Assembly: GCA_015058655.1 (NCBI GenBank)
Contig: SVBX01000006.1
Coordinates: 1 to 64,000, forward strand
DNA from: Pseudoselenomonas ruminantium
Lineage (GTDB): Bacteria > Bacillota > Negativicutes > Selenomonadales > Selenomonadaceae
Direction: 5' to 3'
DNA length: 64,000 nt
Within the stretch, counting starts at the first letter, position 1; every line of letters starts with the position of its first letter. The position numbers and the translations under genes are program-made. The notes beneath the pieces are model-generated. The model was not told the DNA's origin, searched no databases, and worked only from the letters and a program-made list of their open reading frames with translations. Positions 34,272 to 52,445 of the stretch are shown piece by piece.

Positions 34272-34283
34272 ATAGCATAAAAT
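34255..34283 (+). promoter_or_regulatory. Promoter of the RelB/PIN toxin-antitoxin operon
   Basis: TTGACA (34255-34260) and TAAAAT (34278-34283) are spaced by 17 bp. The -35 box lies inside the palindrome described separately. Confidence 0.8.
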
Positions 34284-34306
34284 TGGGTCAAAGGAGGATG
34301 ATTGTC

Positions 34307-34627
34307 ATGGCTGCAACAGCAACAGTACAGTTTCGTCTTGAGCCGGAAAAGAAAAAAGCTGCTGAAGAGTTATTTAATGGTATGGGCCTTACTTTGACTA
34401 CTGCGTTTGCTCTTTTCATACAACAATCTCTTAACTGCAACGGCTTGCCTTTTCCTGTACTTGGCAAGCAGCAGGCTGAAAATATCATGCCCAGAAACCA
34501 GGATATTGACGAGCGTATGGCTGCGTTAAGCAAAATCAACAGTTTGTGCCGCAAGGCCCCCCCTGACTTTGACTACGCCAAAGAATTAGCAGAAGCGAGG
34601 GACGTGAAGTATGAAAGTGTTCATTGA
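34307..34627 (+). CDS. RelB/DinJ family antitoxin
   Basis: A 106-residue antitoxin. The N-terminus is a ribbon-helix-helix: ATVQFRLEPEKKKAAEELF then MGLTLTTAFALFIQQSL, as in DinJ/RelB, followed by GLPFPV. The C-terminal half should wrap the toxin. AAGGAGG lies 9 bp before ATG 34307. It overlaps the PIN toxin by 17 bp and is preceded by a palindromic operator, so it should repress its own promoter. RelB/DinJ usually pairs with a RelE/YafQ-fold toxin; here the partner is a PIN protein. Confidence 0.85.
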   Translation: MAATATVQFRLEPEKKKAAEELFNGMGLTLTTAFALFIQQSLNCNGLPFPVLGKQQAENIMPRNQDIDERMAALSKINSLCRKAPPDFDYAKELAEARDVKYESVH

Positions 34628-35027
34628 CACTAACGTTATCCTTGACAGAGTTTTGTTCAGAGACGAGCCAAACTTTTCTTCTGCCAGGATATTTGAGGCT
34701 TCAGCTACAGGCAAGATAGATGGTTATATCGCTGCCTTGTCATTCTCGCATATTGCGTATATACTAGGGAAACGTTTTTCTTTGGACGAGATACGTGAAA
34801 TGTATATAGGTCTATGTACGATATTCAATGTCGTTGGACTTAGCAAGTCAAATATCATCGCAGCCTCGCGAAATCGTGATTTTACTGATTTTGAGGATTG
34901 TTTGCAATACGAATGCGCTAAGAATATAGGGGCAGATTATATCGTTACTAACAACAGCAAAGATTTTACGAAATCAGGAATCAATGTATTGAGACCAGAT
35001 GAGTTTATAAAAATGATGCTTATGTGA
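34611..35027 (+). CDS. PIN-domain ribonuclease toxin (VapC-like)
   Basis: A 138-residue PIN-domain protein. The N-terminal strand KVFIDTNVILD carries the first acidic residue; later acidic residues are in FTDFEDCLQYECA and GADYIVTNNSKDF, matching the four-acid active site of PIN nucleases. These toxins usually cleave tRNA or rRNA when freed from the antitoxin. The reading frame overlaps the antitoxin, which supports tight coupling. GAGGGACG precedes ATG 34611. No disruption is visible. Confidence 0.88.
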   Translation: MKVFIDTNVILDRVLFRDEPNFSSARIFEASATGKIDGYIAALSFSHIAYILGKRFSLDEIREMYIGLCTIFNVVGLSKSNIIAASRNRDFTDFEDCLQYECAKNIGADYIVTNNSKDFTKSGINVLRPDEFIKMMLM

Positions 35028-35954: not shown

Positions 35955-37400
35955 ATGGAAAAGCAAGATATTGAGTTTGTTGACAGGAGTATGGCTAATG
36001 TTACGCCGAGCGAACTTAGTGAGGGAGAAAGAATTTGGCAAGTCTTGGAAACACCACGGTTTGAGTATGGATTTCGTAATGATAGCATTGAGAGGCAAAG
36101 ATTTCGTGATTTGTATACCCAGATACATGGCATGTCTTGTAGTCTTGATGATGATGGACTGGCAGGAATGATTACTAGCATAGGTTTTGTCTATGCTGGT
36201 AAGGTGTATGCTATATCGGAAGCCGCTAAGCAATGGTTGAGGGGGCAGTTAGACAGTTACCGAGCCTCAGGCATCAGTATCGCTTATTATGGATCGTTAT
36301 ATGATAATTGTTTTGATGAGTGCACAGAAGCCAAAATTATTTCGGCGGAGATGCTGCGAGCATTACTGTCTGAACTTACTCTGAGTTATGATGTGCAGTC
36401 TGACTTTATTGCTCTTAGTGCGGGTAAGGCAACAGAATTGGAACTGTTGCAGAGTGAAATACTGCGCGTATGGGGCAATAGCCCCTTGGAGAAGCTGGAT
36501 GAACTTGCGCAGCGTTTGCCACTTGTGCCACATGATAAGGTAAAATGGGCTTTGCTGAATGATGACGCGTTTGTCTGGAACGGTAGTGATACCTATGTGC
36601 TTAGTGATGCTCTGGACTTGGAAGAAGAAGAAATTGCAGATTTGGTGCATCAAATAGATGAGCACTGCTCAAAGTCAGGCCAGGTATCTCTGTTGGAGTT
36701 GCCATTGAACCAATACAGAGAAAGAAATACGGATTTCTCTGATACAGCTTTATACAGTATAGTATATGGATATGTTGCAGATAGATATGAAAGACGTGAT
36801 AGAATATTGTATCCTAAAGGTGGCGGGCAAAGTATAGAGGCAGCTGTGCATGAATTTTGTTTAGGCAGGGAACGATGTACCTATGAGGAACTAAAGGATG
36901 TTGCAGTCCGTGCTACGGGTAGGGTACGCTTGTCAGAAATCGTAGATGCTGCACAGTCTATAATGGTACGCATTGATCACGATAAATATGTATCAGATAA
37001 TCAAGTAAGCTTTGAATGTGATGAAATCGATTCGGTGTTGGACAGGATGGTTGGAGATGGATTCCTGGGGCTAAAGGAAATATCAGCATTTGGATTATTT
37101 CCATCATGTGGATTTGCTTGGAATCTATATCTGTTGGAAAGCTATTGCCGCAGGTTTAGCAAACGGTATATATATCGATGCAAGTCGGCCAATTCATCAA
37201 ATGTTGGTGTTGTCACACTTAAAACTTGTCAGTGGAGTTATTATGAACTGATGACTCACGCTGTGGCTATGTCTAATGTTAAATTGGACAAAAAAAGTAT
37301 ATTTGATTTCTTGCAGGGTACGGGGTATATAGAGCGTAAAAGGTATAATCTTATAGATGATTTATTGAAAGAAGCAGATGAACTACGTAAAAGGGGTTAG
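35955..37400 (+). CDS. Unrecognised protein, first gene of the BREX-like operon
   Basis: A 481-residue protein I cannot assign to a family. The N-terminal third is mixed and charged. The middle and C-terminal parts show two similar helix-rich blocks that look like winged-helix repeats: LVPHDKVKWALLNDDAFVW with SDTYVLSD, and GRVRLSEIVDAAQSIMVRI with DHDKYVSDN. This suggests a DNA- or protein-binding adaptor; it is inference only. No catalytic motif, signal peptide or membrane segment is seen. The start is uncertain: AAGGAG is 15 bp before ATG 35955 and 3 bp before an in-frame TTG at 35943. It ends 5 bp before brxP with the same AT-rich composition, so it is probably part of the operon. Confidence 0.65.
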   Translation: MEKQDIEFVDRSMANVTPSELSEGERIWQVLETPRFEYGFRNDSIERQRFRDLYTQIHGMSCSLDDDGLAGMITSIGFVYAGKVYAISEAAKQWLRGQLDSYRASGISIAYYGSLYDNCFDECTEAKIISAEMLRALLSELTLSYDVQSDFIALSAGKATELELLQSEILRVWGNSPLEKLDELAQRLPLVPHDKVKWALLNDDAFVWNGSDTYVLSDALDLEEEEIADLVHQIDEHCSKSGQVSLLELPLNQYRERNTDFSDTALYSIVYGYVADRYERRDRILYPKGGGQSIEAAVHEFCLGRERCTYEELKDVAVRATGRVRLSEIVDAAQSIMVRIDHDKYVSDNQVSFECDEIDSVLDRMVGDGFLGLKEISAFGLFPSCGFAWNLYLLESYCRRFSKRYIYRCKSANSSNVGVVTLKTCQWSYYELMTHAVAMSNVKLDKKSIFDFLQGTGYIERKRYNLIDDLLKEADELRKRG

Positions 37401-37405
37401 TAAAC

Positions 37406-39736
37406 TTGTATTCGTATACCTATGATGAAGAGACAGGTGGGATTCTTTTGAATTCCACACCGACGGTTTTTTCAAGAGAACCACGTCCTGTGTATGCTCC
37501 AGAGTTGGATTTATTAGGGTTCGACAAATATTGGAACTATGATGGGCAGACAGATGTGCCATATATGTGGGCTGAATCTGTGCAGTATTATTATCGAGGC
37601 AAGCCAGTAGCAAGGCTTAAAGGTGGTAATCTGTATGAGGCTCCAGAAATAATTTTGACTACAGATGCCAATGGCGTATTTGTAGAGCCAGAACCTAATG
37701 GAGGTAAGTTGCGTCCTGTAGATATTGAACGGATGGTCGAAAAGAACCGTGATATGGTTGATGTTATCGAAAATGATGCAGTTAAGAGACTGATAGCCAT
37801 TTACGAAAAGTATAAACATAAGCTCGATATTTTCCATGTTGCGTTTTCAGGTGGCAAGGATAGTGCAGTTCTGCTAGAATTGGTCAAGAAGGCGCTTCCA
37901 AAGGAGAGCTTTGTGGTTATTTTTGGTGACACAGGCATGGAGTTCCCAGATACTTATGAGGCGGTTCGTCATGCTCAGGCAGAATGTGGGCAGGACGGTA
38001 CGCCTTTTTATGTTTCTCGTTCGCATTTTGATCCACATGATTCCTGGAAAATATTTGGCCCGCCAGCCAGGGTGCTTCGTTGGTGTTGTAGTGTACATAA
38101 GAGTACGCCGCAAACGTTGAAACTTCGGGAAATAACAGGAAAAAATGATTATGTAGGAATGGATTTTGTAGGTGTGCGTCGCCATGAAAGTGTAACGCGC
38201 AGTAAATATCAGTATGAAAACTATAGCAAGAAGCAAAAAGGACAATACAGCTACAATGCAATTCTAGATTGGACGTCCGCAGAAGTGTGGTTATATATTT
38301 TTGCTAAGAAAATTTATGTAAACGGAGCCTATAAAAAAGGCAATTCTAGGGCGGGCTGTTTATTTTGTCCTATGAGTGGAGATCTTAGTAATTATATTCG
38401 CAGAAAGGACTATACTGAAGAAATAGATAGTTATGTAGATATGATTGAAAAAGAATATGGCAATCCAGATCCTGAAAAAGCTAGATCATATGTCGTAAAT
38501 GGTGGTTGGAATGCTAGGAAAAATGGAAGAGAACTTGCCATAAAAACGGATAGGTGTCTAGAAAAGAATGATGGAGATATGCTAAATATTAAAGTTAGAA
38601 ATCCTGAATCTAATTGGCAAGAATGGATTAAAACTATAGGCGTTTTTGGTATATCTGAAAAGGGGTATACAATAACATATAAGGATAAAATTTTCGACTT
38701 TTATGTTACAGAATATACCGATGAATATGTGGTATCTATCTCGTCTAAAGCTTTGAAGCAGGAACCAACATTTGGAAAATTCTTTAGACAAGTGTTTCGC
38801 AAGGCAGCATCTTGTGTTGGATGTATGGTTTGTGAAACTAACTGCCCTCATGGGTGTATAAAATTTGTAAGTGGCAAAGTCACTATAGATGGGTGCATAC
38901 AATGTCATCAGTGTCATCAAATAGATAGCGGTTGTTTACTATTTCACTCAACCAGACAGCCGCAAGGTGGAGGTAAAGGAATGAAGAGCCTAAATTCGTT
39001 TGCAGATCATGCGCCTAAACCGGAGTGGTTGCAGTCTTTCTTTGAGTTAAAGGAAGAGTTTTTTGAAAATAATACGTTAGGACCTATGATGTATGATATG
39101 TTTAGACGCTTCTTGAAGGATGCAGAATTAAACAAGAAAAACCATTTTACGCCTTTTGCGGAACTTGTTTCTAATATTGGCTGGGAAACAGGGACATCTA
39201 TGGGATTAATTTTGACGAATTTAGCAGCGCAAAATCCACAAATCAGGTGGTATATAAATAATTTTGAATTAGGCCAATACTACCCAAGAGCAAGGGTAGA
39301 AGAAATGTTGGTGGCGTTGGATGTAAAGCCCAAAGATGCGAAATCTATTGTCAAGGCATATAAACGCATTGTGGCTACTCCATTAGGGACTATTCTTAAT
39401 TTTGGTCATGTAACAGATGAATTTGAAATTGCTAGAACTAAATGCACTATAACTGATAACCGTGTAGTCCTTTATGCCCTCTATAAGTTCGCTGAGCAGT
39501 GCAATGACTATAAGGAATTCACGCTGACTTGGTTACTGAATGATGAGGTAAAAAGAGATGGTATTAGCCCAACTCGGTTGTTCGGATTGGAGCGTGAGGA
39601 AATGAAATCAATACTGATGGGACTTACTGCGCATTATCCTGAATTCATCAACGCGACATTTACCAATGACCTTGACAAGATTTCGTTGACAGAAAAGAAT
39701 TCGGCAGATGTGTTGCGTCTGTTCGAGGAGGTATGA
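37406..39736 (+). CDS. brxP: BrxP: PAPS-reductase-like (DndC/SspD-like) protein with ferredoxin insert
   Basis: A 776-residue protein that marks type 4 BREX loci. The PP-loop adenylation domain has SGGKDS at residues 148-153 in a phosphoadenosine-phosphosulfate-reductase-like fold. CC at 227-228 and C318/C321 (GCLFCPM) resemble the four-Cys iron-sulfur set of DndC. A ferredoxin-like cysteine cluster follows at about 470-510 (CVGCMVCETNC, then CIQCHQC), fit to hold one or two [4Fe-4S] clusters. The C-terminal 250 residues are helical and end with LTAHYPEFINATF. DndC and SspD use such PP-loops to activate DNA for sulfur insertion; a like role here is inferred. The start is TTG 37406 with AAAAGGGG 9 bp before. 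It overlaps brxC by a few bases. Confidence 0.88.
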   Translation: MYSYTYDEETGGILLNSTPTVFSREPRPVYAPELDLLGFDKYWNYDGQTDVPYMWAESVQYYYRGKPVARLKGGNLYEAPEIILTTDANGVFVEPEPNGGKLRPVDIERMVEKNRDMVDVIENDAVKRLIAIYEKYKHKLDIFHVAFSGGKDSAVLLELVKKALPKESFVVIFGDTGMEFPDTYEAVRHAQAECGQDGTPFYVSRSHFDPHDSWKIFGPPARVLRWCCSVHKSTPQTLKLREITGKNDYVGMDFVGVRRHESVTRSKYQYENYSKKQKGQYSYNAILDWTSAEVWLYIFAKKIYVNGAYKKGNSRAGCLFCPMSGDLSNYIRRKDYTEEIDSYVDMIEKEYGNPDPEKARSYVVNGGWNARKNGRELAIKTDRCLEKNDGDMLNIKVRNPESNWQEWIKTIGVFGISEKGYTITYKDKIFDFYVTEYTDEYVVSISSKALKQEPTFGKFFRQVFRKAASCVGCMVCETNCPHGCIKFVSGKVTIDGCIQCHQCHQIDSGCLLFHSTRQPQGGGKGMKSLNSFADHAPKPEWLQSFFELKEEFFENNTLGPMMYDMFRRFLKDAELNKKNHFTPFAELVSNIGWETGTSMGLILTNLAAQNPQIRWYINNFELGQYYPRARVEEMLVALDVKPKDAKSIVKAYKRIVATPLGTILNFGHVTDEFEIARTKCTITDNRVVLYALYKFAEQCNDYKEFTLTWLLNDEVKRDGISPTRLFGLEREEMKSILMGLTAHYPEFINATFTNDLDKISLTEKNSADVLRLFEEV

Positions 39737-39738
39737 GT

Positions 39739-42700
39739 ATGGCAGAAACAGGAAGAGGGAACTATAGCCAATTTTTTGATGTCAATGAAGACTACTTTCC
39801 TTGTATAGATGACTCAGCTATCAAAGGCGGGGCTAGATGGGACAATACCTATCCTCATAAGACATTCGTCAAGCTGTTGAAGGCTACAGAGTTGATGCTT
39901 GGAGGGACTACGAACCGATCCCTATGGATTCATGGTGGCTATGGTACAGGAAAGTCGCAGTGTGCATATACGCTTAAAGAAATCCTGAGTGCATCGGAGG
40001 AAGAACTGCTCGCTTACTGGAATAGCTATGATGCATTGAAGAATGAGAAGGATCTATTGGATAAGCTGTGCGGTCATAGGGAGCGGGGAATTCTGACCGT
40101 ATATCGTTATGCTACGGGGAGCATTCACAATATGCAGGCGTTCTTTGCAGCGGTCCAGGCCAGTGTTAGTGAGGTTATGGTCAACGATGAGCGTATCACG
40201 TATTACGGTGAGAACACGCTGAAAGATACTATTATTGCTTGGCTGGAGCAGCCTGAGCAGAGAGCGTTCTTGGATGCACTTTTGAAAAAGCCTGAGTGGA
40301 TGGCCACTTTTGCGGAGGAGAATGCAGAAGAAATCCTTGCTTCGCTTAAAAGGCCTCAAGCTAATGTTGCAGAATTGATGGATAATCTTTTCAGGCTGGC
40401 AGAGAATGAAGGCATTACTGCTATGAAGCTGGATGCAGATAAGTTGAAGGCTTGGTTACGCGATGTAATCCTGAAGAACAACATCAAGATTGTCTTCTTT
40501 TGGGATGAGTTCAGCGATTTTTTTAAGAACAATAGAAACTCTTTGGGTGATTTTCAGCAGGTGGTGGCTCTTTGTCAGGAATGTCCGTTTTATATGGTGA
40601 TTGTCACACATCAAACCAGTGAAATAATTGATGAGCATGATGAAGGATGGAAGGTCGTTCAGCAGCGCTTTGAACGCGTTGAGATTACACTTCCGGACAA
40701 TATTGCCTTTGAACTTATTGGTCACGCTTTCAAGGATAAACCAGCAGCAAAGGCCGCCTGGAATGCTGTCGCAGATGAGCTTAATAATAGACTGCCTGAT
40801 TCTAGGGCTGCAGTTATGAAAGCAATCAAGATAGGCCAACCCAATATTATCAAGGATATTATGCCTATTCATCCGATGGCGGCTTTGGTATTAAAGAATA
40901 TAGCCTCGGCATTTGCCTCGAATCAGCGTAGTATGTTTGATTTTATCAAGACACAGGATGCGCAAGATACTAAGGCTTTCCAATGGTTCATTAGTAATTT
41001 CGGTCCAGATGATGATTATCCGCTGTTGACGATTGATATGTTGTGGAATTTCTTTTATGTTAGGGGCGGAGATAATCTTACGCCGGATATCCGCATGGTT
41101 CTGGATGCTTTTGCACAGCAGAGTGGCCTGCGGGACGATGAGCAACGCGTTTTGAAGGCTATCCTTATCATGCAGGCTCTAGACAAGCGTTATAGTGGAG
41201 AAATTGAGCTGCTGAAGCCGACAGAGCAGAATATCAGTTATGCTTTTGAGGGCATCACGTCTGGTCTTGATTCGGCATGTAAAAACATTGCCAAGCGGTT
41301 GGAACGCGATAATGTGTTGGTAAAAAAACCTCTGGGTAATAATAAGTATGCCTATGAGGTAGCTGTGCTTGCTGGTGATCAAGCTAAAATTAACGCGGAC
41401 AAGAAATTGATTCGGCAGAATAGCTCTACAGATAAATTGGTAGAGAGCGGCAATCTGTCTGGATGCTTGTCTTTGCCACCATCACTGAAAGGACGATTCT
41501 GTCCCGATGAGCAGCAGGGCGGTTTACCTACAGCGACAAATGCCAGTTTTAAGCGTGTCATCAATAAGTTGAAGAGCGGTGGCGAGGCTTGGCAAGAAAA
41601 ATCTGTGCTCGTTTTTGCCAAGGATGAAGGTGAGGCAGTAGAACTTCGCAAGAAAATCAAGGAAGCAGTAACGAATGAAGAGTATAGGGATATTTTGTTT
41701 ATTGATGCAACGGAGAGCCAACTGGGCGATGATGAGTTCGATAGTTACGTAGAATTTGCAGCTATGGCAATGTATTATCAAGGAAACAACAATACGACTG
41801 CCCGCGATAATGAAACGAAGGCTAAAAATGTCCTTGCTATTACTTGGAAGAACAAAATCTATAGTGGTCCATTTACGGTCTATAGCTATGATTGTCAGGA
41901 TGGCGAACGTGTTCAGGGCGGTCAGCAAGTTATCGATGCCATGAAGGCCAAGGTGCTGAAACGTTATTGTTATGTGCCAGATTTTGGAAAGGGCCTGACG
42001 GAGACGCAGTTCAAACTTACCAATTCCAAGCAGGCGGCACTTTGCGGTGCTAACCAAAAGACAAGTGGCATTATGCAGGGCGCAGAAAAAGGTACTTTAG
42101 TGGCTGTTTGGCAGAAGGATGAGTATTGGCAGCAGCCGGAAACATCTGCTGAGGGCATTTCTGAAATCAAGCGGAAGCTGAATGCTCAGATAGAAGAATT
42201 CTTCAATGCGACCGGACAAGTTGCAATTTGCGATGTGCTGGAGTTCTTGGAAGTTTCCTATGGTTATAGGCCCAGCAACTTGATGGCATTTATGACAGGG
42301 TTCCTGTTGAAAGAATATGGGGTTCCTCCTTATCGCTATACTGACCAGAACGGTACCCGTGAAGAGATGTCACCTGACAAATTAGCGGAAATGATAGATG
42401 GAGGTCTCAAACGTGGCACTCAGACATATATAGTCAAAATGACTCCCGAGGAGAAAGCTTTTTATGAAACTACAGAGAAGGCCTGGGGAATTGCACAGAA
42501 TACTTTATCGTCTCCGGCCAGAGCGTCAAGTTGCGTAAAAACAGCAATGCAGCGTCTGGGCTTGCCAGTGTGGTCGTTGCAATATGTGGATAATAATGGC
42601 GTATATGATCAGGTGCGGCAGTACATTTCTTTTGTCCAGAAACATGGAGCAGAAGAGCAGCAGGCAGTCACGGATATCGGTAAAGCAGCCAAGAACGATG

Positions 42701-43884
42701 GAAATCTGGGAGATACGTTGCGCGGGTTGCTCACGGAGGAGAATTGCAGGCAGGGAATACTGAGTTTCTTGGAACATTTTGAAGATGGAAGATTGTTGGA
42801 ACTGGCAGAAAATATAGGTGCCAGTGACAGACTGCTTGATGATGTCAAGAAATTGTTCAGCGCAGTGGAATATTCCAGTCTTTGGAATGAGGAGACAGGC
42901 AAGGAACAGATTAAGAAACTGGTGGTCGATTACACATTCGTGCAGGAAACTAATGCCATTATTGATGCTGCTGCGCATTCCAAGCGTGAAGCCAAGGGAG
43001 AATGGCGTGAAAAGCTGAAATATGTGTTGTGTTCGTGTGAACGTCTGCAGGAAACTTATCCTGAGTGGAAAGAACTGCTTGCGTCGCTTAAAAAGATGGC
43101 ATTGGAACAGGATTTACTGCCGGAACAACTGCAAGATTTTGTCAGGGAACTCTCAGTGCATGCGGCAGAACTCAAGCAATATTTCTCAGAGGAAGTTCAG
43201 GCTTTTAAAAAGATTTATGTTGATTATCTTGAGAACCTGTCTAATGATGACATTGATCAGATGCGCCCAGAACTGGTCAATATTTTCGTGAAATCACGTA
43301 CAGTTAGCAATAGCACAGTCAGGGATGCTGCAGATAAGGTGCGTCAGAATCAGATACGTACACAGTTGTTCCAGTTGTGGAAGAGCAAAACCGGCTCAAA
43401 GACACCGAGGGTTTGGTCAACATTGCATAAGACACCGATTCTTTCAGTTGTAAGTGATGAAGAGTATTCAGCAGCCAAGAAAGCGTTTGAAACACTGAAT
43501 CGTCCATATCCGACTAAGAATGAGATGAAATCTGCCCTGGATTTCCTGGAATCAAGCTTTTCCATTGATAGATTAATGGATGAGGATGCTGTACGAAAGG
43601 GATTCATTAAGGTACTCGGTAGCTACTATAGTATTCTCGGTGATTTGGACAGGGTACGTGATGAACTGGATGAGTTAGCAATAGATGCGTATGACTGGGA
43701 TCAGGATCCGCGCATAAAAGCAAAAATCAAGAAAATGGCTGAGATTGAGTACGATGCTGGCGGTAGTGATAAGGTCGTGGCTAAGATAGAGTCCATGAAC
43801 AATGAAGAGCTGAAGAGATATCTGGTTGAGCAAGTACGTAATAATATAGACTTAGGTATGGAGATTCTGAACGGAGGCAAGTGA
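39739..43884 (+). CDS. brxC: BrxC: large P-loop ATPase of BREX (type 4 form)
   Basis: A 1381-residue ATPase with Walker A GGYGTGKS (residues 66-73) and a Walker B-like FFWDEF (about 253-258) in an AAA-type module of about 450 residues, followed by a long helical region. It belongs with the PglY/BrxC group of large BREX ATPases, which move or sense DNA or hold the complex; the exact biochemistry is unsettled. ATG 39739 is chosen because GAGGAGG lies 7 bp before it, while ATG 39733 is only 1 bp from the site. It is tightly linked to brxP and pglZ, both overlapping or adjoining it. Confidence 0.85.
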   Translation: MAETGRGNYSQFFDVNEDYFPCIDDSAIKGGARWDNTYPHKTFVKLLKATELMLGGTTNRSLWIHGGYGTGKSQCAYTLKEILSASEEELLAYWNSYDALKNEKDLLDKLCGHRERGILTVYRYATGSIHNMQAFFAAVQASVSEVMVNDERITYYGENTLKDTIIAWLEQPEQRAFLDALLKKPEWMATFAEENAEEILASLKRPQANVAELMDNLFRLAENEGITAMKLDADKLKAWLRDVILKNNIKIVFFWDEFSDFFKNNRNSLGDFQQVVALCQECPFYMVIVTHQTSEIIDEHDEGWKVVQQRFERVEITLPDNIAFELIGHAFKDKPAAKAAWNAVADELNNRLPDSRAAVMKAIKIGQPNIIKDIMPIHPMAALVLKNIASAFASNQRSMFDFIKTQDAQDTKAFQWFISNFGPDDDYPLLTIDMLWNFFYVRGGDNLTPDIRMVLDAFAQQSGLRDDEQRVLKAILIMQALDKRYSGEIELLKPTEQNISYAFEGITSGLDSACKNIAKRLERDNVLVKKPLGNNKYAYEVAVLAGDQAKINADKKLIRQNSSTDKLVESGNLSGCLSLPPSLKGRFCPDEQQGGLPTATNASFKRVINKLKSGGEAWQEKSVLVFAKDEGEAVELRKKIKEAVTNEEYRDILFIDATESQLGDDEFDSYVEFAAMAMYYQGNNNTTARDNETKAKNVLAITWKNKIYSGPFTVYSYDCQDGERVQGGQQVIDAMKAKVLKRYCYVPDFGKGLTETQFKLTNSKQAALCGANQKTSGIMQGAEKGTLVAVWQKDEYWQQPETSAEGISEIKRKLNAQIEEFFNATGQVAICDVLEFLEVSYGYRPSNLMAFMTGFLLKEYGVPPYRYTDQNGTREEMSPDKLAEMIDGGLKRGTQTYIVKMTPEEKAFYETTEKAWGIAQNTLSSPARASSCVKTAMQRLGLPVWSLQYVDNNGVYDQVRQYISFVQKHGAEEQQAVTDIGKAAKNDGNLGDTLRGLLTEENCRQGILSFLEHFEDGRLLELAENIGASDRLLDDVKKLFSAVEYSSLWNEETGKEQIKKLVVDYTFVQETNAIIDAAAHSKREAKGEWREKLKYVLCSCERLQETYPEWKELLASLKKMALEQDLLPEQLQDFVRELSVHAAELKQYFSEEVQAFKKIYVDYLENLSNDDIDQMRPELVNIFVKSRTVSNSTVRDAADKVRQNQIRTQLFQLWKSKTGSKTPRVWSTLHKTPILSVVSDEEYSAAKKAFETLNRPYPTKNEMKSALDFLESSFSIDRLMDEDAVRKGFIKVLGSYYSILGDLDRVRDELDELAIDAYDWDQDPRIKAKIKKMAEIEYDAGGSDKVVAKIESMNNEELKRYLVEQVRNNIDLGMEILNGGK

Positions 43885-43889
43885 TAGCT

Positions 43890-46178
43890 ATGGATATGAG
43901 CGCTGTAGAAGCATATTTCGTATCGCCGCAGTCACATAAACCGTTTTATCTGGTAGTAGGGGATGAGGATTATAAGGATGCACTGGTAACACTGTCTAAT
44001 CGTGTTACTTCTGTATTGCGTGTTAGCAATTATTGTCGTACTCCTGATCGGATACCCAATTTGGACAAGATGAAAGATGATTTGCAGACAGCTGATGTTT
44101 CCTGTGAACACAATAGGGTGTTGGTGCTGGGATTAGGGGAATACTTGGCTTTGGAGGGAGAGGAGTATGCCAAGTCATATCTTCAATCTCTGAAAGATTT
44201 CAACCTTGGTGCTGGCAAGGCGGTTTTGCTTCTACGCGGTGTGGCAGAACAAGTCAAGTCTATCATCAAAGGTGATAGGAGGCTTAAGGAGAGTGGCCGT
44301 ATTGCCATAGCATCTGATACATATACTGCTATTTCTTTGCAACTTGCAAATCCAGAATTGGCCATATACGAGAAGCATGGTCTTAAGGCGATTATACATG
44401 CCATGGAGGATGGTGGTGCAGGCAAAATATGCGCTTCCACAGTAATGAATTTTACACATGCACTACTGTCAGTTAAACGTGTGAAGGATGCATACGAGGC
44501 AATCGTAAAACACATCTGGTTAGGGAAGGTAAACAAACAATATGGCACTGATGATACATGGGATAGGTTATTGGAGGAATTACGTAGAAATGGTTTTAAA
44601 CTAAATCATGTTTTTGAAAAACATGATATGCGTAATTTCCAGTTGGCTTATTTGCATGATTATTTGTCTCGGGATGAATATGAGGCATGGCTCTGCTATC
44701 TATACCTTTTGCTACATAAGGAAGAATATGCCGGACAATATTTAGGACTGGTCTTGGATTCTTCCTGTGGGCTTGATGAATTTAAGAAAAATCTTATATA
44801 TAGCATTGCCACCATAAGGCATACATCTCCGAAATATAAGGAATTATATAAGGAACGCAAGCGCTTGTTGTTTCAGTACACAGAGGCAGAGATGACTCCT
44901 TTTGTGTTGGAGAACAGCAGCAGAGAGGCCAGGGAAAATGTGTATGCTCTAACTGATTTGACCATGCAGGAACGCCAAGCCATAATTATCTGGATAGGAA
45001 GAAACGGGAAGCCGGATTTTCTGTCAGATGTATATCCTGATTTGGCTGACTATCTTTCTCCGTATACTTTTGACGGTGCTAGTGTAGATTCTAATCTGGC
45101 TGCGTTGTTGACCAATTATATAGAAAGCTATAAGCAACAAAAAGTGTCAAACCGCTTAGAACAATCATTTTCTGACCAAGTGGATGAGCTGGCTTTGCAG
45201 CGTATCTATAATAGGTTGCCTCATAGAGATGAATTGGTAAAAGAAAAACGCGATGATGCTACGCTTTTAGTCTGGATCGATGCGCTTGGCCTCGAATATA
45301 TTGGCTTTATCTCTAGGTTTGCCAGCAATAGGGGCTTATTTATGTCCGTGCAATTAGGCAGAGCCAGTCTGCCCACAATCACCTGCAGAAATAAATCATT
45401 CTTTGAGGAGTGGCCAGAAAAAAGCAGAACCAAGGTAGAGACGCTGGATGAAGTAAAACACAAGGAAAAAGGCGGCTTTCGCTATGGTCAGGACAGGGAT
45501 GCCGAAAAATATCCTGTATATCTGGCCAGGGAGCTTGATATTATTCGTGATGCATTGGAGCATATATCAACCGAACTTGTAGGTAGAAAGCATGAACGTG
45601 TTGTGATAGCCAGTGATCATGGAGCATCGCGTCTTGCAGTTCTTCATGGAAAAGAAGAAAAGTACCCAACTGATACGCAGGGAGAACATTCAGGACGATG
45701 CTGCAAGTTCTTTGAGGGATGCGATTTGAAGTTTGCGATTAAGGATGAAGAGGCTGGCTATATTACTCTGGCTGATTATGGTCGTTTCGCAGGCAGTCGC
45801 GCGGCAAACGTCGAAGTCCATGGAGGAGCAACGCTGGAAGAAGTCGTTGTACCTTTAATAACCTTATCACTTGCTGATAATAGTTTCAGCGTCAAAATCA
45901 CAAATGATAATATAACAGCTGATTATAAGCGTGGTATCAAGTTTAATTTGAGTCTTAGCAAATTCAGCAACGAGAATCTTGCTTTGGGCTATGATAATCA
46001 GCGGTATCTAGCACAGCGCTTAGATGATTACAACTACGAAGTAGAGATTTCTGCTATAATCAAAGCTGGCACATATTCATTAGATGCATATCTGGGAGAT
46101 AATCTTGTGGAACATCTCAGTATTGTTGTATCTGGAAAGAGTGCTATGATAAATGATGATTTTGATGATTTGTTCTAG
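43890..46178 (+). CDS. pglZ: PglZ: BREX alkaline-phosphatase-superfamily protein
   Basis: The signature BREX gene. In this 762-residue protein the alkaline-phosphatase-like core lies in the C-terminal half: the metal/nucleophile strand LLVWIDALG (about 459-467), LPTIT (about 494-498), ASDHGASR (about 574-581), and the family hallmark HGGATLEEVVVP (about 644-655). The N-terminal half is helical. PglZ is essential for BREX defence and modification, but its substrate is not settled. GTG 43881 (3 bp after GGAGG) and ATG 43890 (12 bp after it) are both possible starts; I chose ATG. It is followed by brxL after 11 bp. Confidence 0.9.
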   Translation: MDMSAVEAYFVSPQSHKPFYLVVGDEDYKDALVTLSNRVTSVLRVSNYCRTPDRIPNLDKMKDDLQTADVSCEHNRVLVLGLGEYLALEGEEYAKSYLQSLKDFNLGAGKAVLLLRGVAEQVKSIIKGDRRLKESGRIAIASDTYTAISLQLANPELAIYEKHGLKAIIHAMEDGGAGKICASTVMNFTHALLSVKRVKDAYEAIVKHIWLGKVNKQYGTDDTWDRLLEELRRNGFKLNHVFEKHDMRNFQLAYLHDYLSRDEYEAWLCYLYLLLHKEEYAGQYLGLVLDSSCGLDEFKKNLIYSIATIRHTSPKYKELYKERKRLLFQYTEAEMTPFVLENSSREARENVYALTDLTMQERQAIIIWIGRNGKPDFLSDVYPDLADYLSPYTFDGASVDSNLAALLTNYIESYKQQKVSNRLEQSFSDQVDELALQRIYNRLPHRDELVKEKRDDATLLVWIDALGLEYIGFISRFASNRGLFMSVQLGRASLPTITCRNKSFFEEWPEKSRTKVETLDEVKHKEKGGFRYGQDRDAEKYPVYLARELDIIRDALEHISTELVGRKHERVVIASDHGASRLAVLHGKEEKYPTDTQGEHSGRCCKFFEGCDLKFAIKDEEAGYITLADYGRFAGSRAANVEVHGGATLEEVVVPLITLSLADNSFSVKITNDNITADYKRGIKFNLSLSKFSNENLALGYDNQRYLAQRLDDYNYEVEISAIIKAGTYSLDAYLGDNLVEHLSIVVSGKSAMINDDFDDLF

Positions 46179-46189
46179 GAGGGGTGGGC

Positions 46190-47695
46190 GTGAGTCCTCT
46201 TGAAAAAAAGCTTAGGGGCTACTTTGATGATATGGTCGTTTATAAAGATCTGAAGCATCAGGGAAATGTATTCTCAGCACTCAGCCTGCCATCATTTATG
46301 CGCGACTGGATTTTGAGAAAGTTCGAGGACAGAGAAGATGGCACGTTCGATGCTGACAGGTTGGTAAAATTCGTCCATAAATATCTGCCAAAGAAAGATG
46401 ATTGGATTGCCATCAAGAATCGTATAGTTATAGAACGAGAAAACGTGAAGTTCCTAGCGAAAATCGCTGTAGATATTGATATAAAGACAGGCAAGGTATC
46501 ATTTGCTTTACCAGATTTTGGTCTTTCATGCAAGGATACCATCATAGAAAATGATGTATGGGATACCTGCAAGGCCGATTTGGTCGGTGCCCACGAGATT
46601 TGGGGCATGGTTGAGCTTGGATATCAGTCCCCGGATGATTTTGACTGGAGCTTTAACTATGATGCTCACCAAAGCAAATCTAAGGAAAGCAAGAAGGGAA
46701 AAATCAAGCTGACGTCGTTCAAGGCGTTTTGTCCATATAGGACGGATTTGGAGTATTTTAAGGATATCAGTAAGGAATTTGAGCCCTCAGAGTGGATAGA
46801 TGTACTTTTGGGAGCAGTTGATTATAATGCGTCTGGCTATCCTGATGAAGAAAAGAAATTAACTATGCTGACTCGATTGTTGCCATTTTTGGAAAAGCGC
46901 CTGAATCTAATCGAGCTTGCACCTAAGGGGACTGGTAAGTCATATCTGTTTGGCAGTGTAAGTCGTTTTGGCTGGCTATCCAGTGGCGGTGTTATGAGTC
47001 GTGCTAAAATGTTCTATGACCAGAACCGTCGCACGGAGGGCTTGGTAGCAGGGAATGACTTCATTACCTTGGATGAAGTGCAGACTATATCATTCACGGA
47101 TACGGACGAGATGCGCGCTGCGCTCAAAGGATACCTACAATCCGGTAAATTCACGGTTGGCAACTACGAAGGAACAGCATATGCTGGGGTAATCCTTTGC
47201 GGCAATATCAGCAAAGAAGCCATGGATGAGGATGGCTATGGTAATATGTTCCAGGAATTGCCCAAAGTGTTCCAGGAATCTGCTCTGCTTGAACGTTTTC
47301 ACGGATTCATTAAAGGATGGAATATTCCTAGGATGAATGATGATATGAAAGCCTCGGGCTGGGCACTGAATTCGGAATACTTCTGCTCAATTATGCATGA
47401 TATGCGCGATGATATGAGTTACAGGGCAGTGGTGGATGCTTTGGTTGAAGTCCCACCAGGTGCTGATACAAGAGACACTGAAGCAGTGAAAAGGATAGCG
47501 ACAGCATACCTGAAATTGTTATTTCCTTATGTACGCAAGTCTAGCGATATTTCCTCTGATACATTCAGGCATTATTGCCTGGATAGGGCAAGGAAGATGC
47601 GTGATACTATAGTGTATCAGTTAGGGTTACTGGACAAGGAATATAGCGGCAAGGATATCCCTGCATTCAAGGTTTGCGCAGATTATGATAAATGA
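46190..47695 (+). CDS. brxL: BrxL: AAA+ BREX protein lacking the Lon-like C-terminal domain
   Basis: A 501-residue BrxL. The N-terminal DNA-binding-like region is followed by an AAA+ module with Walker A APKGTGKS (residues 244-251) and Walker B-like FITLDEVQ (about 291-298), then GVILCGNIS and LLERFHGFIKGWNIPR, all features of BrxL. Type 1 BrxL proteins are nearer 680 residues and end in a Lon-protease-like domain; here the protein stops after the AAA+ helical part, so that domain is missing. Whether this is normal for type 4 I cannot tell. GTG 46190 with AGGAGGGG about 6 bp before is the best start. The next small gene starts 10 bp later. Confidence 0.88.
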   Translation: MSPLEKKLRGYFDDMVVYKDLKHQGNVFSALSLPSFMRDWILRKFEDREDGTFDADRLVKFVHKYLPKKDDWIAIKNRIVIERENVKFLAKIAVDIDIKTGKVSFALPDFGLSCKDTIIENDVWDTCKADLVGAHEIWGMVELGYQSPDDFDWSFNYDAHQSKSKESKKGKIKLTSFKAFCPYRTDLEYFKDISKEFEPSEWIDVLLGAVDYNASGYPDEEKKLTMLTRLLPFLEKRLNLIELAPKGTGKSYLFGSVSRFGWLSSGGVMSRAKMFYDQNRRTEGLVAGNDFITLDEVQTISFTDTDEMRAALKGYLQSGKFTVGNYEGTAYAGVILCGNISKEAMDEDGYGNMFQELPKVFQESALLERFHGFIKGWNIPRMNDDMKASGWALNSEYFCSIMHDMRDDMSYRAVVDALVEVPPGADTRDTEAVKRIATAYLKLLFPYVRKSSDISSDTFRHYCLDRARKMRDTIVYQLGLLDKEYSGKDIPAFKVCADYDK

Positions 47696-47705
47696 TGGTG
47701 ATGTG

Positions 47706-47900
47706 ATGACTGAATGCTATGTTTGTGGGAAAAAGAGACTGAGCAAAAACGAGGTAGGGCTTACCAAAAAACTTATGGGCAAGCGTAGCCAAAAATTCTA
47801 TTGCCTGTCGTGCTTGGCAGAAGAACTGGAAGTCACGAAGGTAGAGTTGTTGGATAAAATCGAGGAATTCAAAGATGAGGGATGCAGGCTGTTTGAATGA
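47706..47900 (+). CDS. Small zinc-ribbon protein in the BREX-like operon
   Basis: A 64-residue protein with two CxxC pairs: CYVCGKKRLSKNEVGL near the N-terminus and FYCLSCLAEEL at about 32-42. This gives a four-Cys zinc ribbon, followed by an acidic helix ending VELLDKIEEFKDEGC. Zinc ribbons of this size bind DNA, RNA or proteins; no family is recognised. An in-frame ATG at 47685 overlaps brxL by 11 bp and could also be used; ATG 47706 has a weak GGTG site. It lies between brxL and the next gene with no gap for a promoter. Confidence 0.7.
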   Translation: MTECYVCGKKRLSKNEVGLTKKLMGKRSQKFYCLSCLAEELEVTKVELLDKIEEFKDEGCRLFE

Positions 47901-47906
47901 AAGGGG

Positions 47907-48719
47907 ATGGTGGTGCTGTCTTTGTTTAAAGGAATAATATCATGTGATGAATTTGAGTTTAATTTTGAATTTAGTGAAGCTAGCAAAGATGTAGATATTG
48001 CTCATCCTGAATCATGGGCGTATGAAGTCAAAAATGAAGATAATGAAACACTGGAAATGTATATGCTTAATCAGGATAATACTAATTTTTTTGATGAAGC
48101 ATATGAATATGCTTTAGCTAGTCTTTCTGCAAAGGGAAAAGTACCTGTAGGTGATATAGATAATTTTCATAGTGTTATCAACGCTTATTTGAGTGGGAAA
48201 TTTTCTTCGATAAAACTCAAACTCGAAATTTATGATGAAAATGATGACATTATCAAACAGACATCTCTTTTTGCTCCTAGAGAGGTTGATATCTGTTACA
48301 TAAGGCCAGATGAAAACGAATTCATTGACACAGGAATGATTGCTTTTCATAGAATAGGTAAATTCTTGAAGAAGGCTAAATGGCAGTCTACTTTTGATGA
48401 ACATGATAGCAAACAGATTCTTTGGTTCGGCCTGGAGGGGGAATCTCCTATTGATTGCTGGTCTATTACCAGAGAACGCATTATGGAAGACAGGGTTATT
48501 CCATTTTGGTTCCCGGATCGCGGAATGATTGATTGGAATGAGGTCTGTCCAGATTGGAATTACGCTGTTGAAACGTGGATGTTCGGTGAGTGTGGAGAAA
48601 CAGAGCCAGATGGAGTGAAAAAGGCGATAGAAGATTGTCCTATAAAACTGAATTCAGAGGACACACCGGAAGTGCTGAGGAGTAAGTTTGAAGCATATTT
48701 TGAAGAGAAGAGGTCATAA
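47907..48719 (+). CDS. Unrecognised acidic protein in the BREX-like operon
   Basis: A 270-residue acidic protein with no family I recognise. It has alternating strand-like stretches rich in Asp/Glu/Asn (FEFNFEFSEASKDVDIA, IYDENDDIIKQTS) and Trp/Phe-rich parts (WFGLEGESPIDCW, VIPFWFPDRGMIDWNE, ETWMFGECGE). No catalytic motif, signal or membrane segment is seen. ATG 47907 touches AAGGGG; the GTG codons at 47910 or 47913 would space better, so the start is uncertain by two codons. It ends 2 bp before the cysteine desulfurase start. Negatively charged proteins of this kind in defence loci are sometimes DNA mimics, but this is only a guess. Confidence 0.6.
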   Translation: MVVLSLFKGIISCDEFEFNFEFSEASKDVDIAHPESWAYEVKNEDNETLEMYMLNQDNTNFFDEAYEYALASLSAKGKVPVGDIDNFHSVINAYLSGKFSSIKLKLEIYDENDDIIKQTSLFAPREVDICYIRPDENEFIDTGMIAFHRIGKFLKKAKWQSTFDEHDSKQILWFGLEGESPIDCWSITRERIMEDRVIPFWFPDRGMIDWNEVCPDWNYAVETWMFGECGETEPDGVKKAIEDCPIKLNSEDTPEVLRSKFEAYFEEKRS

Positions 48720-48721
48720 TA

Positions 48722-49849
48722 GTGATTTATGCAGATCATGCTGCGACTACCAAACTTCTTCCAGAAGCATTTGATGCCATGTTTCCGTTCTTGAACGATG
48801 AGTATGGTAATCCATCGCAGCCGTATAGACTTGGTGTACATGCTAAAAAAGCACTGGCCCAGGCTAGGGAAAATATTGCATCCTGCATAGGTGCAGAACC
48901 AGAAGAAATTTACTTTACATCTGGTGGATCAGAAAGTGATAACTGGGCAATAAAGTCTGTGTTGTTTCAAAGTAGTGAGCAGAAGAGAATCGTTACATCA
49001 ACAATTGAACACCATGCTGTGTTGAACTCTTGTAGTATGATGCAGCATTTAGGCGTTCCTATAACATATTTACCTGTGGATAGTCAAGGCCTTGTGCATT
49101 TAGACCATATGGCAGATGCAATACACGAGCATACTAGCTTAGTATCTATTATGTTGGCCAATAATGAAATTGGTACAATCGAACCGATTAAAGAATTGGC
49201 CGCTTTGACTCATGATAAAAAGGCCTTATTTCATACAGATGCGGTACAGGCTGTAGGTCATATACCTATTAATGTAAAGGAATTAGATGTGGATATGCTA
49301 TCTGCCTCCGCTCATAAGTTCCGTGGCCCAAAGGGTGTTGGATTCCTCTATATTAGGAAGGGAATTACATTACCTCCGTATATAAGTGGTGGAGTGCAGG
49401 AACGAGGGAAGAGAGCTGGAACTGAAAACGTTGCTGCAATTGTTGGTATGTCAGCGGCTTTAGTTCATAGCGTCAAGCATATGCGAGGACATAGCGAATG
49501 CCTGAGACAAATTGAGCAGTCATTTATATCCGCATTAACAGAGCACCAGGTTGATTTTAAGCGCAATGGCGCAAAAAATCATTTACCGGGATGTGTTAAT
49601 GTCTCATTTCGTGATAGCGATGGGGAAATGTTGATGCACCGACTAGATTTGAAAGGAATCTGCATATCTACCGGTTCTGCATGTGATTCTGTAGATACAG
49701 CGATATCCCATGTTTTGCAGGCTATCAAAGTGCCTGCCGAGTATGCTGAAGGCACGATAAGAGTAACTTTTGGCGATGAAAATTCGATAGAGGATGCCGT
49801 TGCTGTTGCTAATGAATTGAGTAAGATACTTTGTTCTAATGATGGTTGA
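48722..49849 (+). CDS. Cysteine desulfurase, IscS/NifS/DndA-type
   Basis: A 375-residue PLP enzyme that takes sulfur from cysteine onto its own catalytic Cys. Motifs are YADHAATT at the N-terminus, SGGSESDNWAIK, HHAVLNS, NNEIGTIEPI, the PLP lysine K199 in SASAHKFRGPKG, and the catalytic Cys C321 in STGSACDS. The loop around C321 is short and matches group I IscS/NifS/DndA enzymes more than SufS. The GTG 48722 start follows AAGAGG with 2 bp between it and the upstream stop. No isc or suf scaffold gene is beside it. Its position at the end of an operon with a DndC-like brxP suggests it feeds sulfur to that enzyme; that link is inferred. Confidence 0.9.
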   Translation: MIYADHAATTKLLPEAFDAMFPFLNDEYGNPSQPYRLGVHAKKALAQARENIASCIGAEPEEIYFTSGGSESDNWAIKSVLFQSSEQKRIVTSTIEHHAVLNSCSMMQHLGVPITYLPVDSQGLVHLDHMADAIHEHTSLVSIMLANNEIGTIEPIKELAALTHDKKALFHTDAVQAVGHIPINVKELDVDMLSASAHKFRGPKGVGFLYIRKGITLPPYISGGVQERGKRAGTENVAAIVGMSAALVHSVKHMRGHSECLRQIEQSFISALTEHQVDFKRNGAKNHLPGCVNVSFRDSDGEMLMHRLDLKGICISTGSACDSVDTAISHVLQAIKVPAEYAEGTIRVTFGDENSIEDAVAVANELSKILCSNDG

Positions 49850-49905: not shown

Positions 49906-50097
49906 ATGCTTACAGAGAGGTAAAAAGCGCTTGTTCGTGAAGAGAATTTTGTGCATATGTATGATAAAGAGCTAGAAATGTTTTATCAGTATCTCGACTG
50001 GGCTATGGTAGCGAAGGAGATGGGGGATGACAGCAGCAAGATGCCCATAGCATCTTTCTATAAGTCAGATGAAAAGCTGAATCTGGAGGTAGAGACT
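49906..50097 (+). pseudogene. Upstream in-frame extension of the antitoxin, broken by a stop
   Basis: ATG 49906 has a very good AGGAGGAGG site, but its frame meets TAA after five codons and then continues open as YDKELEMFYQYLDWAMVAKE and MPIASFYKSDEKLNLE into the antitoxin gene. Either a longer gene was broken and only its antitoxin part is still read, or the short open frame is a leader. I cannot tell which. Confidence 0.4.
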
Positions 50098-50319
50098 ATG
50101 GTAACTTTAGAAATGACACAAGCCTTGTCAGAACTTAATCAGGCAAATTATCAAGCAGCGATGAAGTTTATTAGATATCTGCTTTCCACGCAGAGTAAGC
50201 AGGAAACGTCGGTTGTAGATACCTCCAAGCGTTTCGGTATATCTCAGGGGAACTTGCAGGTGCCAGATGATATTGATTTTTGCAATGACGAGATTGCAGA
50301 TTTATTTGGAGTAAAATGA
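50098..50319 (+). CDS. Small antitoxin partner of a PIN toxin
   Basis: A 73-residue protein directly before, and overlapping by one base, a PIN toxin. It starts with a helix (EMTQALSELNQANYQAAMKF) and ends with an acidic tail (VPDDIDFCNDEIADLF). The ending FGISQGNLQVPDDIDF matches the 'FG(I/L)xxGxxxVPEDFD' tail of antitoxins that pair with PIN toxins in Firmicutes and cyanobacteria (DUF2281-like or Phd-like). ATG 50098 has GGAGG 9 bp upstream. Confidence 0.7.
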   Translation: MVTLEMTQALSELNQANYQAAMKFIRYLLSTQSKQETSVVDTSKRFGISQGNLQVPDDIDFCNDEIADLFGVK

Positions 50320-50723
50320 TGAATATACTTTTGGATTCGCACATCCTGCTGTGGACTTTGGATGGCAGCTCACAGCTGGCAGAGAAGGGCAGAGAGCTTA
50401 TTACGGACGCGCACAATGAAATCTACTACAGTGCGGCCTCTATATGGGAACTCTCCATCAAGCACCAGTTGCATCCCAAACAAATCCGCTACCCGGCGAA
50501 AATGCTGCGCGAGCTGTGCCAGCAGGCAGGCTTTACAGAAGTACCTGTACTGGTTTCGCATGTAGAAGCAATGGAGACTTTAAGCCGTCCACAAGATGCT
50601 CCTAGGCATAAAGACCCGTTCGACAAGATTTTGATTGCCCAGGCCAAGGCTACAGGCATGATGTTTTTGACACATGATGCCATGCTGCCGTATTATGACG
50701 AGTCCTGCATTATCAAGATTTGA
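50319..50723 (+). CDS. vapC: PIN-domain toxin, VapC family
   Basis: A 134-residue PIN-domain ribonuclease toxin. The family opening is NILLDSHILLWTLDG (first acidic residue D7). SIWELSIK holds the conserved Glu, and the later acids are in HKDPFDKILIAQAKA and LTHDAML. It belongs to the group with signature 'D-x-H-x-LLW' that pairs with small antitoxins such as the one just upstream. Its start overlaps the antitoxin stop; ATG 50319 has GGAG 7 bp before it, while an ATG 3 bp earlier is closer. It has its own terminator. Confidence 0.88.
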   Translation: MNILLDSHILLWTLDGSSQLAEKGRELITDAHNEIYYSAASIWELSIKHQLHPKQIRYPAKMLRELCQQAGFTEVPVLVSHVEAMETLSRPQDAPRHKDPFDKILIAQAKATGMMFLTHDAMLPYYDESCIIKI

Positions 50724-50828: not shown

Positions 50829-50873
50829 TGAAGCAAAGAGAATATTCCATCATGGCAGGAAGGAGTGAGGGAT

Positions 50874-52445
50874 ATGGCAGAAGAAATCAGGCGGCTGCCT
50901 GTCGGGGTGCAGAGTTTTGAGGACCTTCGAGAAGGCGGCTTTGTCTATGTGGATAAGACGAAGTATATTTATGAGCTGGCACGGAGAAGCAAGCAGTATT
51001 TCCTCAGCCGCCCCCGGCGCTTTGGCAAGAGTTTGTTCCTTTCCACCTTGAAAGCTTATTGGGAGGGGAAGAGGGAACTCTTTGAGGGGCTGGAGATTGC
51101 AGAGCTGGAAAAGGACAATGAGAAGGCTTTTGAGGCTTATCCTGTGTTTTATTTTGATTTCAACGGGCAAAATTATCAGGCTGCAGCTTTGGAAGATGTG
51201 CTGGATAAGATGCTTAGTCGATGGGAAGAGCAATACGACTGCAAGGGGCAGGGGACACTAAGCGGACGATTCCAGGACCTTTTGATTGCCGCCAGAGAAA
51301 AGACCGGCAAGAAATGTGTGGTGCTGGTGGACGAATATGACAAGCCGTTACTTGAGGTACTGGAAAACAACGAACTGGAGGAGCACAACAAGGCAGTCTT
51401 CAAGGGCTTCTTCGGTACCTTGAAAAGCTATGATGAATATCTTCAGTTCGTCTTTATCACCGGGGTTACGAAATTTAGCAAGGTGAGCATATTCAGCGAC
51501 CTGAACCAGCTTAAGGACATCTCTTTGCAAAAGTCCTATAGCGCTATTTGTGGTATGACCGCAGAGGAAATCTGCAGCCATTTCCAGCCTGAGCTGACGA
51601 GGATGGCTGCAGAGCACAATCTGTCCAGGGAAGAATGTCTGCAAGAGCTGGCCAGAATGTATGACGGCTATCATTTCTCCCCTGATTCTGCTGGCATCTA
51701 CAATCCATTTAGTGTGTTGAATGCCATGGATTCAGGAAATTTATCAGCTTTCTGGTTCTCAACCGGCACACCCACCTTTTTGGTGAGGCGACTAAGGAAT
51801 ATGCACTTCGATATGAGGCAGTTTGGAGGCCAGGATATTTATGCGGAGGAGTACGTCCTGACAGATTATCGGGGGGATAACCCCGATATCATCCCATTGC
51901 TGTACCAGACCGGATATCTCACTATCACGGGCTATGACAGGGAGGAACAACTCTACATTCTGGGCTTCCCCAATGCAGAGGTGAAGTACGGGTTCTTGAA
52001 GAGCTTGCTACCGGCTTATGCACCCACCGCTGTCACGGGCAGTGGCAAGGATGTTGTCACCTTGCGCCGCCGCATCCGGGCAGGGGATGTAGATGGCATG
52101 CTGGATGCTCTCACTGCTCTTTTTGCCAGTATCCCTTACACTACAGATGATGCACCTTTCGAGCATTATTTCCAGTCGGTGATTTATATAGTCTTCACTC
52201 TCCTGGGACAGCATACTCATTGCGAAGTCCACAGCAGCCGGGGGCGGGCGGATTGCGTGCTGGAGACAGATAAGTTTGTCTATATCTTCGAATTCAAGGT
52301 AGATAAGTCAGCCAAAGAAGCCCTGGAGCAGATTGAGGCCAAAGGGTATGCCGCACCCTTCAAGGCAGATCAGCGGCAGATCTTCAAAATCGGTGTGAAC
52401 TTCGATTCAGAGGCCAGAAGCCTCTCGGAGTGGTTGGTGGGATGA
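50874..52445 (+). CDS. AAA-ATPase-like protein with C-terminal PD-(D/E)XK nuclease-like domain
   Basis: A 523-residue member of the AAA-ATPase_like (PF09820) family joined to the PD-(D/E)XK-like DUF1703 domain, widespread in anaerobic Firmicutes and Fusobacteria. The N-terminus is LPVGVQSFEDLREGGFVYVDKT. The P-loop region reads RPRRFGKSLFLS (about residues 45-56), and Walker B reads VVLVDEYDKPL (about 146-156). The C-terminal part has HCEVHSSRGRADCVLETDK and then IFEFKVDK, fitting a D...ExK nuclease core. ATG 50874 with AAGGAG 9 bp before is chosen over GTG 50865. The gene is a single unit with its own promoter. The function of the family is unknown; defence or mobile-element roles are guesses. 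Confidence 0.88.
   Translation: MAEEIRRLPVGVQSFEDLREGGFVYVDKTKYIYELARRSKQYFLSRPRRFGKSLFLSTLKAYWEGKRELFEGLEIAELEKDNEKAFEAYPVFYFDFNGQNYQAAALEDVLDKMLSRWEEQYDCKGQGTLSGRFQDLLIAAREKTGKKCVVLVDEYDKPLLEVLENNELEEHNKAVFKGFFGTLKSYDEYLQFVFITGVTKFSKVSIFSDLNQLKDISLQKSYSAICGMTAEEICSHFQPELTRMAAEHNLSREECLQELARMYDGYHFSPDSAGIYNPFSVLNAMDSGNLSAFWFSTGTPTFLVRRLRNMHFDMRQFGGQDIYAEEYVLTDYRGDNPDIIPLLYQTGYLTITGYDREEQLYILGFPNAEVKYGFLKSLLPAYAPTAVTGSGKDVVTLRRRIRAGDVDGMLDALTALFASIPYTTDDAPFEHYFQSVIYIVFTLLGQHTHCEVHSSRGRADCVLETDKFVYIFEFKVDKSAKEALEQIEAKGYAAPFKADQRQIFKIGVNFDSEARSLSEWLVG

Follow-up and report, generated by a model that had tools for sequence, protein, structure and literature searches.

A complete type 4 BREX operon with its own cysteine desulfurase in Pseudoselenomonas ruminantium, and a predicted winged-helix string encoded ahead of brxP

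Cysteine desulfurases of the DndA/SspA type feed PP-loop proteins, and enzymes of these two kinds occur together in both the Dnd (DndABCDE) and Ssp (SspABCD–SspE) systems. According to a paper of January 2026 (PMC12839542), type 4 BREX has a phosphorothioate apparatus in place of a methyltransferase; a cysteine desulfurase is counted there in 255 of 457 taxa (56%) as a possible sixth core component, it is often accompanied by a small zinc-finger protein, and housekeeping enzymes can substitute for it. A further paper (PMC11931770) gives brxPCZL as one of the known phosphorothioate-synthesis families. The sulfur reading of type 4 BREX is already established in outline by published work.

Here we describe such a locus in Pseudoselenomonas ruminantium (host genome 3.1 Mb, in 50 contigs). 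The window, to which all unprefixed coordinates refer, is the whole stretch of 64,000 nucleotides analysed, from the start of contig SVBX01000006.1. Eight genes, all on the forward strand, occupy positions 35955–49849 in the order g1–brxP–brxC–pglZ–brxL–zinc ribbon–g7–desulfurase, an arrangement proposed in the initial annotation and borne out by the ORF listing and by reading of the sequence. The gaps, originally put at 0–11 bp, were given nearly exactly: neighbouring genes are in fact 2–10 bp apart or overlap by 4 bp (brxP/brxC and brxC/pglZ). The operon is also, as had been stated, AT-richer than its surroundings (42.0% G+C, against 50.0% in the remainder of the window). PIN-domain toxin genes, each preceded by a small gene, flank it on both sides (34283–35027, where the small gene is RelB-like, and 49951–50723), and an AAA-ATPase/PD-(D/E)XK protein is encoded at 50865–52445; these neighbours place the operon within a defence-type island after mutL.

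The locus is a true type 4 BREX anti-phage operon, complete and of the ordinary kind, and the identification first made from its letters is upheld by strong model matches for all four defining products. The PADLOC BrxP match spans residues 1–772 of the brxP product (37406–39736; E=2e-258), which also matches Pfam PAPS_reduct (1e-28), and the BrxC match spans residues 10–1379 of the AAA+ ATPase (BrxC/PglY) encoded at 39733–43884 (E=0). The type 4 PglZ (43881–46178) scores 476.9 bits with NCBIfam NF033445 (BREX_PglZ_4; cut-off 140) and 5e-175 with PADLOC; BrxL (46184–47695) gives 4e-216 with PADLOC and 368.7 bits with TIGR02688 (cut-off 329.3). The reported lack of a Lon part in BrxL agrees with its Pfam domains (BrxL_N and BrxL_ATPase, that is, N-terminal and ATPase domains), and this is the usual form, because the best PADLOC model is itself only 482 aa long. 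Among the seven operon proteins scanned with PADLOC, none matched a PglX methyltransferase model. Downstream of brxL are genes for a 64-aa zinc ribbon (47706–47900; cysteines C4, C7, C33 and C36) and, at the end of the operon, a NifS/IscS/DndA-like cysteine desulfurase (48722–49849; PADLOC DndA 8.9e-133, SspA 2.5e-131). With both desulfurase and small zinc finger encoded, the operon has the six-component type 4 form of PMC12839542, which it resembles in its four defining genes, its BrxL without Lon, the DUF4007-like C-terminus of BrxP and the desulfurase with zinc finger, and from which it differs in the addition of g7.

Likeness to Ssp extends to the desulfurase, the PP-loop protein, a BrxC/SspC-like ATPase and a DUF4007/SspB-like domain, but the operon has PglZ and BrxL and lacks SspE. 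Neither SspB nor SspE was matched among the seven operon proteins, similarity to SspC and SspD is only partial, and SspC models span only part of BrxC. Dnd likewise has a NifS-like desulfurase and a PP-loop protein, but BrxP reaches 32.8 bits where the DndC cut-off is 290.4, and the desulfurase 330.4 where that for DndA is 480; no Dnd models other than these two were matched in the operon.

An undescribed, extended eight-gene subtype had also been suggested. We reject this in favour of a common seven-gene form with one local insertion, g7 (47907–48719, between the zinc ribbon and the desulfurase). The 270-aa product belongs to no family among Pfam, NCBIfam, PADLOC and PHROGs models, and the gene (G+C 36.8%) is missing from every other BREX operon examined, including 30 from the same order (represented in the comparison collection by Selenomonadaceae, including Quinella). 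Searches of plasmids, viral contigs and 398 genomes of the phylum gave no relatives; the sole clear one found, 62% identical, lies outside BREX, in locus L084. A region there (L084:554–9858) carries a PLD-helicase, an SMC-like ATPase, a PC4-like protein and an HNH nuclease, with no BREX genes, and is perhaps another defence island. The best reading of g7 is that of an accessory gene that is mobile.

How widely are the other seven genes kept together? We scanned some 85,000 species genomes with a BrxP alignment and kept the best 80 loci, which are those with BrxPs closest to that of the window and which come from Bacillota, Synergistota, Spirochaetota, Desulfobacterota, Verrucomicrobiota, Planctomycetota, Bacteroidota and one archaeon. 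Of these 80, 74 extended 1.4 kb or more upstream of brxP, and a g1 homologue directly precedes brxP in 72 of the 74; in the exceptions, L158 and L161, a large gene takes its place (with HARE-HTH repeats in L161). All 55 loci that were complete downstream encode the zinc ribbon, and 44 the desulfurase. The 30 same-order operons have the order g1–brxP–brxC–pglZ–brxL–zinc ribbon–desulfurase with small variations, and it is kept in many other phyla besides. Full-length BrxP is missing in five of the six genomes of the window's own genus, and the nearest BrxPs, 63–66% identical, are in Butyrivibrio, Synergistaceae, Ruminococcus, Akkermansiaceae and others; horizontal acquisition of the operon would form part of the best explanation. 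A search of plasmids for type 4 BREX yielded three distant BrxP matches only. Complete type 4 operons, desulfurase included, are present on three IMG/VR contigs classed as viral (L169, L171 and L186).

BrxP is a sulfur transferase of the PP-loop (PAPS-reductase-like) kind that has ferredoxin-type cysteines and, at its C-terminus, a DUF4007-like part. The SGGKDS motif (at 148) and eight ferredoxin-type cysteines are kept, and the AF2 model (pLDDT 91.8) has a fold that matches those of PAPS/APS reductases and of TtuA, a 4Fe-4S sulfur transferase. The desulfurase, similarly, has kept its PLP lysine region (HKF, 198) and cysteine loop (STGSACDS, 316). The initial annotation would have counted it as a refutation if the desulfurase and its flanking genes were not conserved beside brxP in other genomes; this is not the case, as desulfurase and zinc ribbon genes both recur beside brxP across phyla. 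Its central proposal, that the desulfurase supplies sulfur to BrxP and that the self mark is a sulfur modification, is still the best reading, but it is not new, having already been published. Judged from sequence, the operon probably marks self DNA with sulfur, and the zinc ribbon would be part of the sulfur module. This small protein seems to accompany PP-loop enzymes beyond BREX as well: eight IMG/VR contigs (L174–L178, L183, L185 and L187) have PP-loop proteins of 520–580 aa, often two consecutively, followed by a 72-aa zinc-ribbon homologue, with no BrxC. Besides this enzyme, the host genome has a single desulfurase-like match (C32:73613-74416), which is SufS-like and 31% identical, so the BREX copy may be the host's only NifS/IscS-type enzyme; equally, the presence of the SufS-like enzyme, together with the 11 of 55 complete operons that lack a desulfurase, means that the BREX copy may be dispensable.

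The first gene, g1 (35955–37400), encodes an unnamed protein of 481 aa that matches no Pfam, NCBIfam, PADLOC or PHROGs family. Its AF2 model, from a 40-row alignment (pLDDT 92.3, pTM 0.68), has a repeated helix-helix-helix-strand-strand pattern, and we take g1 to be a predicted series of about seven tandem winged-helix (wHTH) domains. In Foldseek, the top matches are to the winged-helix strings of UFL1/DDRGK1 and SelB, and single units match winged-helix DNA- or Z-DNA-binding domains in VIA-align (Z up to 8.9); that comparison covered mainly residues 88–219, so the remaining units depend on the AF2 secondary-structure pattern. The protein may bind DNA. Homologues keep a C-terminal core of 460 aa and vary at the N-terminus. 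With g1 alone as query, a scan of genome contigs gave no match, the sequence probably being too divergent to be reached through exact peptide seeds. Of 398 genomes that sample the phylum evenly, 15 have BrxP and 383 do not; g1 was found in seven of the 15 and in three of the 383 (Fisher p=2e-9), one of these three (L229) being on a contig that ends about 170 bp past g1. Since it was not detectable in the other eight BrxP genomes, we reject the idea that g1 is universal to type 4 BREX; it marks a BrxP subfamily. Some upstream genes are of other kinds: in L065 (11441–14242), the usual g1 is replaced by a gene encoding RNA polymerase alpha-CTD and sigma-70 region 4 domains, the same domains are apparent by eye in L074 (960–3932), both proteins being 933–990 aa long, and in L076 (1–4492) brxP is preceded by a tandem pair of g1-like genes (784 and 685 aa). 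What looks new here is g1 as a conserved gene for a predicted winged-helix string before brxP, together with cassette-like swaps of parts of g1 and of BrxP in relatives of the operon; the main text of PMC12839542, figures and supplements aside, does not describe a conserved gene in this position.

These swaps are clearest in L054 and L055, which are nearly identical in BrxC (98%), PglZ (96%) and BrxL (99%), but only 70% identical in BrxP and 77% in g1, with differences confined to BrxP residues ~215–632 and to g1 past residue 240. We compared fourfold-degenerate sites at conserved residues inside each block and in its flanks. In this pair, 13 of 43 such sites were identical in BrxP 320–640 versus 124 of 145 in the flanks (p=1e-11), and 30 of 65 in the C half of g1 versus 78 of 85 in the N half (p=5e-10). 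For L191 and L069, the figures were 2 of 15 in BrxP 516–640 and 114 of 137 outside it (p=8e-8). This last segment (38951–39325 in the window), the first half of the DUF4007-like part, is an exchangeable cassette that occurs in Selenomonadaceae as two allele classes, with silent sites saturated inside it and conserved flanks: L067 and L069 share one allele (83%), whose identity to every other is ~42%, although identity in the PP-loop regions is 74–95% across the split (95% for L067 against both L057 and L063). Because silent sites and protein diverge together, with sharp edges, recombination must have replaced whole blocks, and selection alone is not enough. The control pair L138/L162 had no replacement block. 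There was no silent-site contrast in BrxP for L057/L063 or L066/L068, where the amino-acid differences may thus reflect rapid divergence rather than replacement.

The exchanges show diversifying use of the cassettes rather than sequence recognition as such; BrxP 516–640 and g1 are candidate DNA-recognition parts. A partial distance-matrix correlation over 73 operons gave no support for general co-evolution between the C half of g1 and variable BrxP (r=0.09 overall, −0.04 among close pairs). Joint exchange is therefore at most occasional and a matter of individual pairs; few lineages contribute the close pairs, and a single pair, L054/L055, shows the g1 exchange clearly.

We also draw attention to seven loci in one Selenomonadaceae genus that have g1 and BrxC (L207, L208, L209, L210, L224, L225 and L228) and lack the PP-loop half of BrxP, BrxL, the zinc ribbon and the desulfurase. 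PglZ is encoded in all five that are long enough (L207, L209, L210, L225 and L228), L208 and L224 being cut by contig ends, and two of the seven keep a DUF4007-like fragment, in the order g1–(DUF4007-like)–brxC–pglZ. Their proteins are more conserved than their silent sites (86% versus 67% for BrxC of L225 and L210), which indicates maintenance by purifying selection. The joint loss of PP-loop, zinc ribbon and desulfurase supports the linkage of the sulfur parts, and these loci are possibly BREX without a self mark of its own.

Taken as a whole, we give a probability of about 0.85 to an acquired type 4 BREX of seven genes plus an insertion, in which desulfurase and BrxP would make a sulfur mark at a site read by the BrxP cassette and g1. 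The desulfurase would remove sulfur from cysteine and pass it to BrxP, which, through its PP-loop and Fe-S parts, would activate a DNA phosphate and insert sulfur into the backbone at a short site, as the self mark. BrxC would assemble the complex on DNA, and PglZ and BrxL would block replication of unmarked DNA. Reading of the site would fall jointly to the winged-helix string of g1 and to the DUF4007-like part of BrxP, in its first half, and exchange of these reading parts between operons would change specificity. It is possible, although we advance it tentatively and with some doubt, that g1 is a dedicated specificity subunit of a large type 4 subfamily, picking the phosphorothioate site together with the BrxP cassette and exchanged as HsdS is; the proposed likeness is to type I restriction, where cassette exchange in HsdS changes specificity.

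Other readings concern the individual parts. The string might bind the promoter, or foreign DNA or RNA, and control the other genes, making g1 a regulator of the operon or a sensor of invaders, and we regard this as a serious contender, if somewhat short of an even chance: g1 is HTH-rich and the first gene of the operon, its N-terminal modules are highly variable, its Foldseek matches bind protein or RNA rather than DNA sites, and the general test of coupling with BrxP was negative. Yet proteins of this type, with 460–1,400 aa and at least seven wHTH units, would be unusual as repressors, a regulator would not be expected to exchange its C half along with BrxP, as g1 does in L054/L055, and persistence of g1 in loci without the BrxP PP-loop suggests work with BrxC and PglZ. 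The desulfurase, for its part, might be a bystander or a host Fe-S enzyme at the end of the operon, with BrxP drawing sulfur from housekeeping SufS or NifS. Its absence from 11 of the 55 complete operons and the substitution mentioned in PMC12839542 would fit this, but we think it unlikely, as the gene stands at the operon end in the other 44, across phyla, and disappears along with the zinc ribbon from loci without the PP-loop. Less likely still is a self mark made by methylation by another protein, with BrxP only building Fe-S clusters or modifying something else, which has against it both the lack of PglX among the operon proteins scanned and the phosphorothioation reported for brxPCZL (PMC11931770).

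On our preferred reading, of an acquired type 4 BREX with a sulfur mark, the locus extends by one genome a group of phosphorothioate defences whose recognition is recent. What merits further attention is the candidate role of g1 and the BrxP cassette in reading the site: natural pairs such as L067/L063 and L054/L055, which differ mainly in BrxP and g1, offer a direct test of which part reads the DNA site, and the reduced loci would show whether BREX can function without a self mark.
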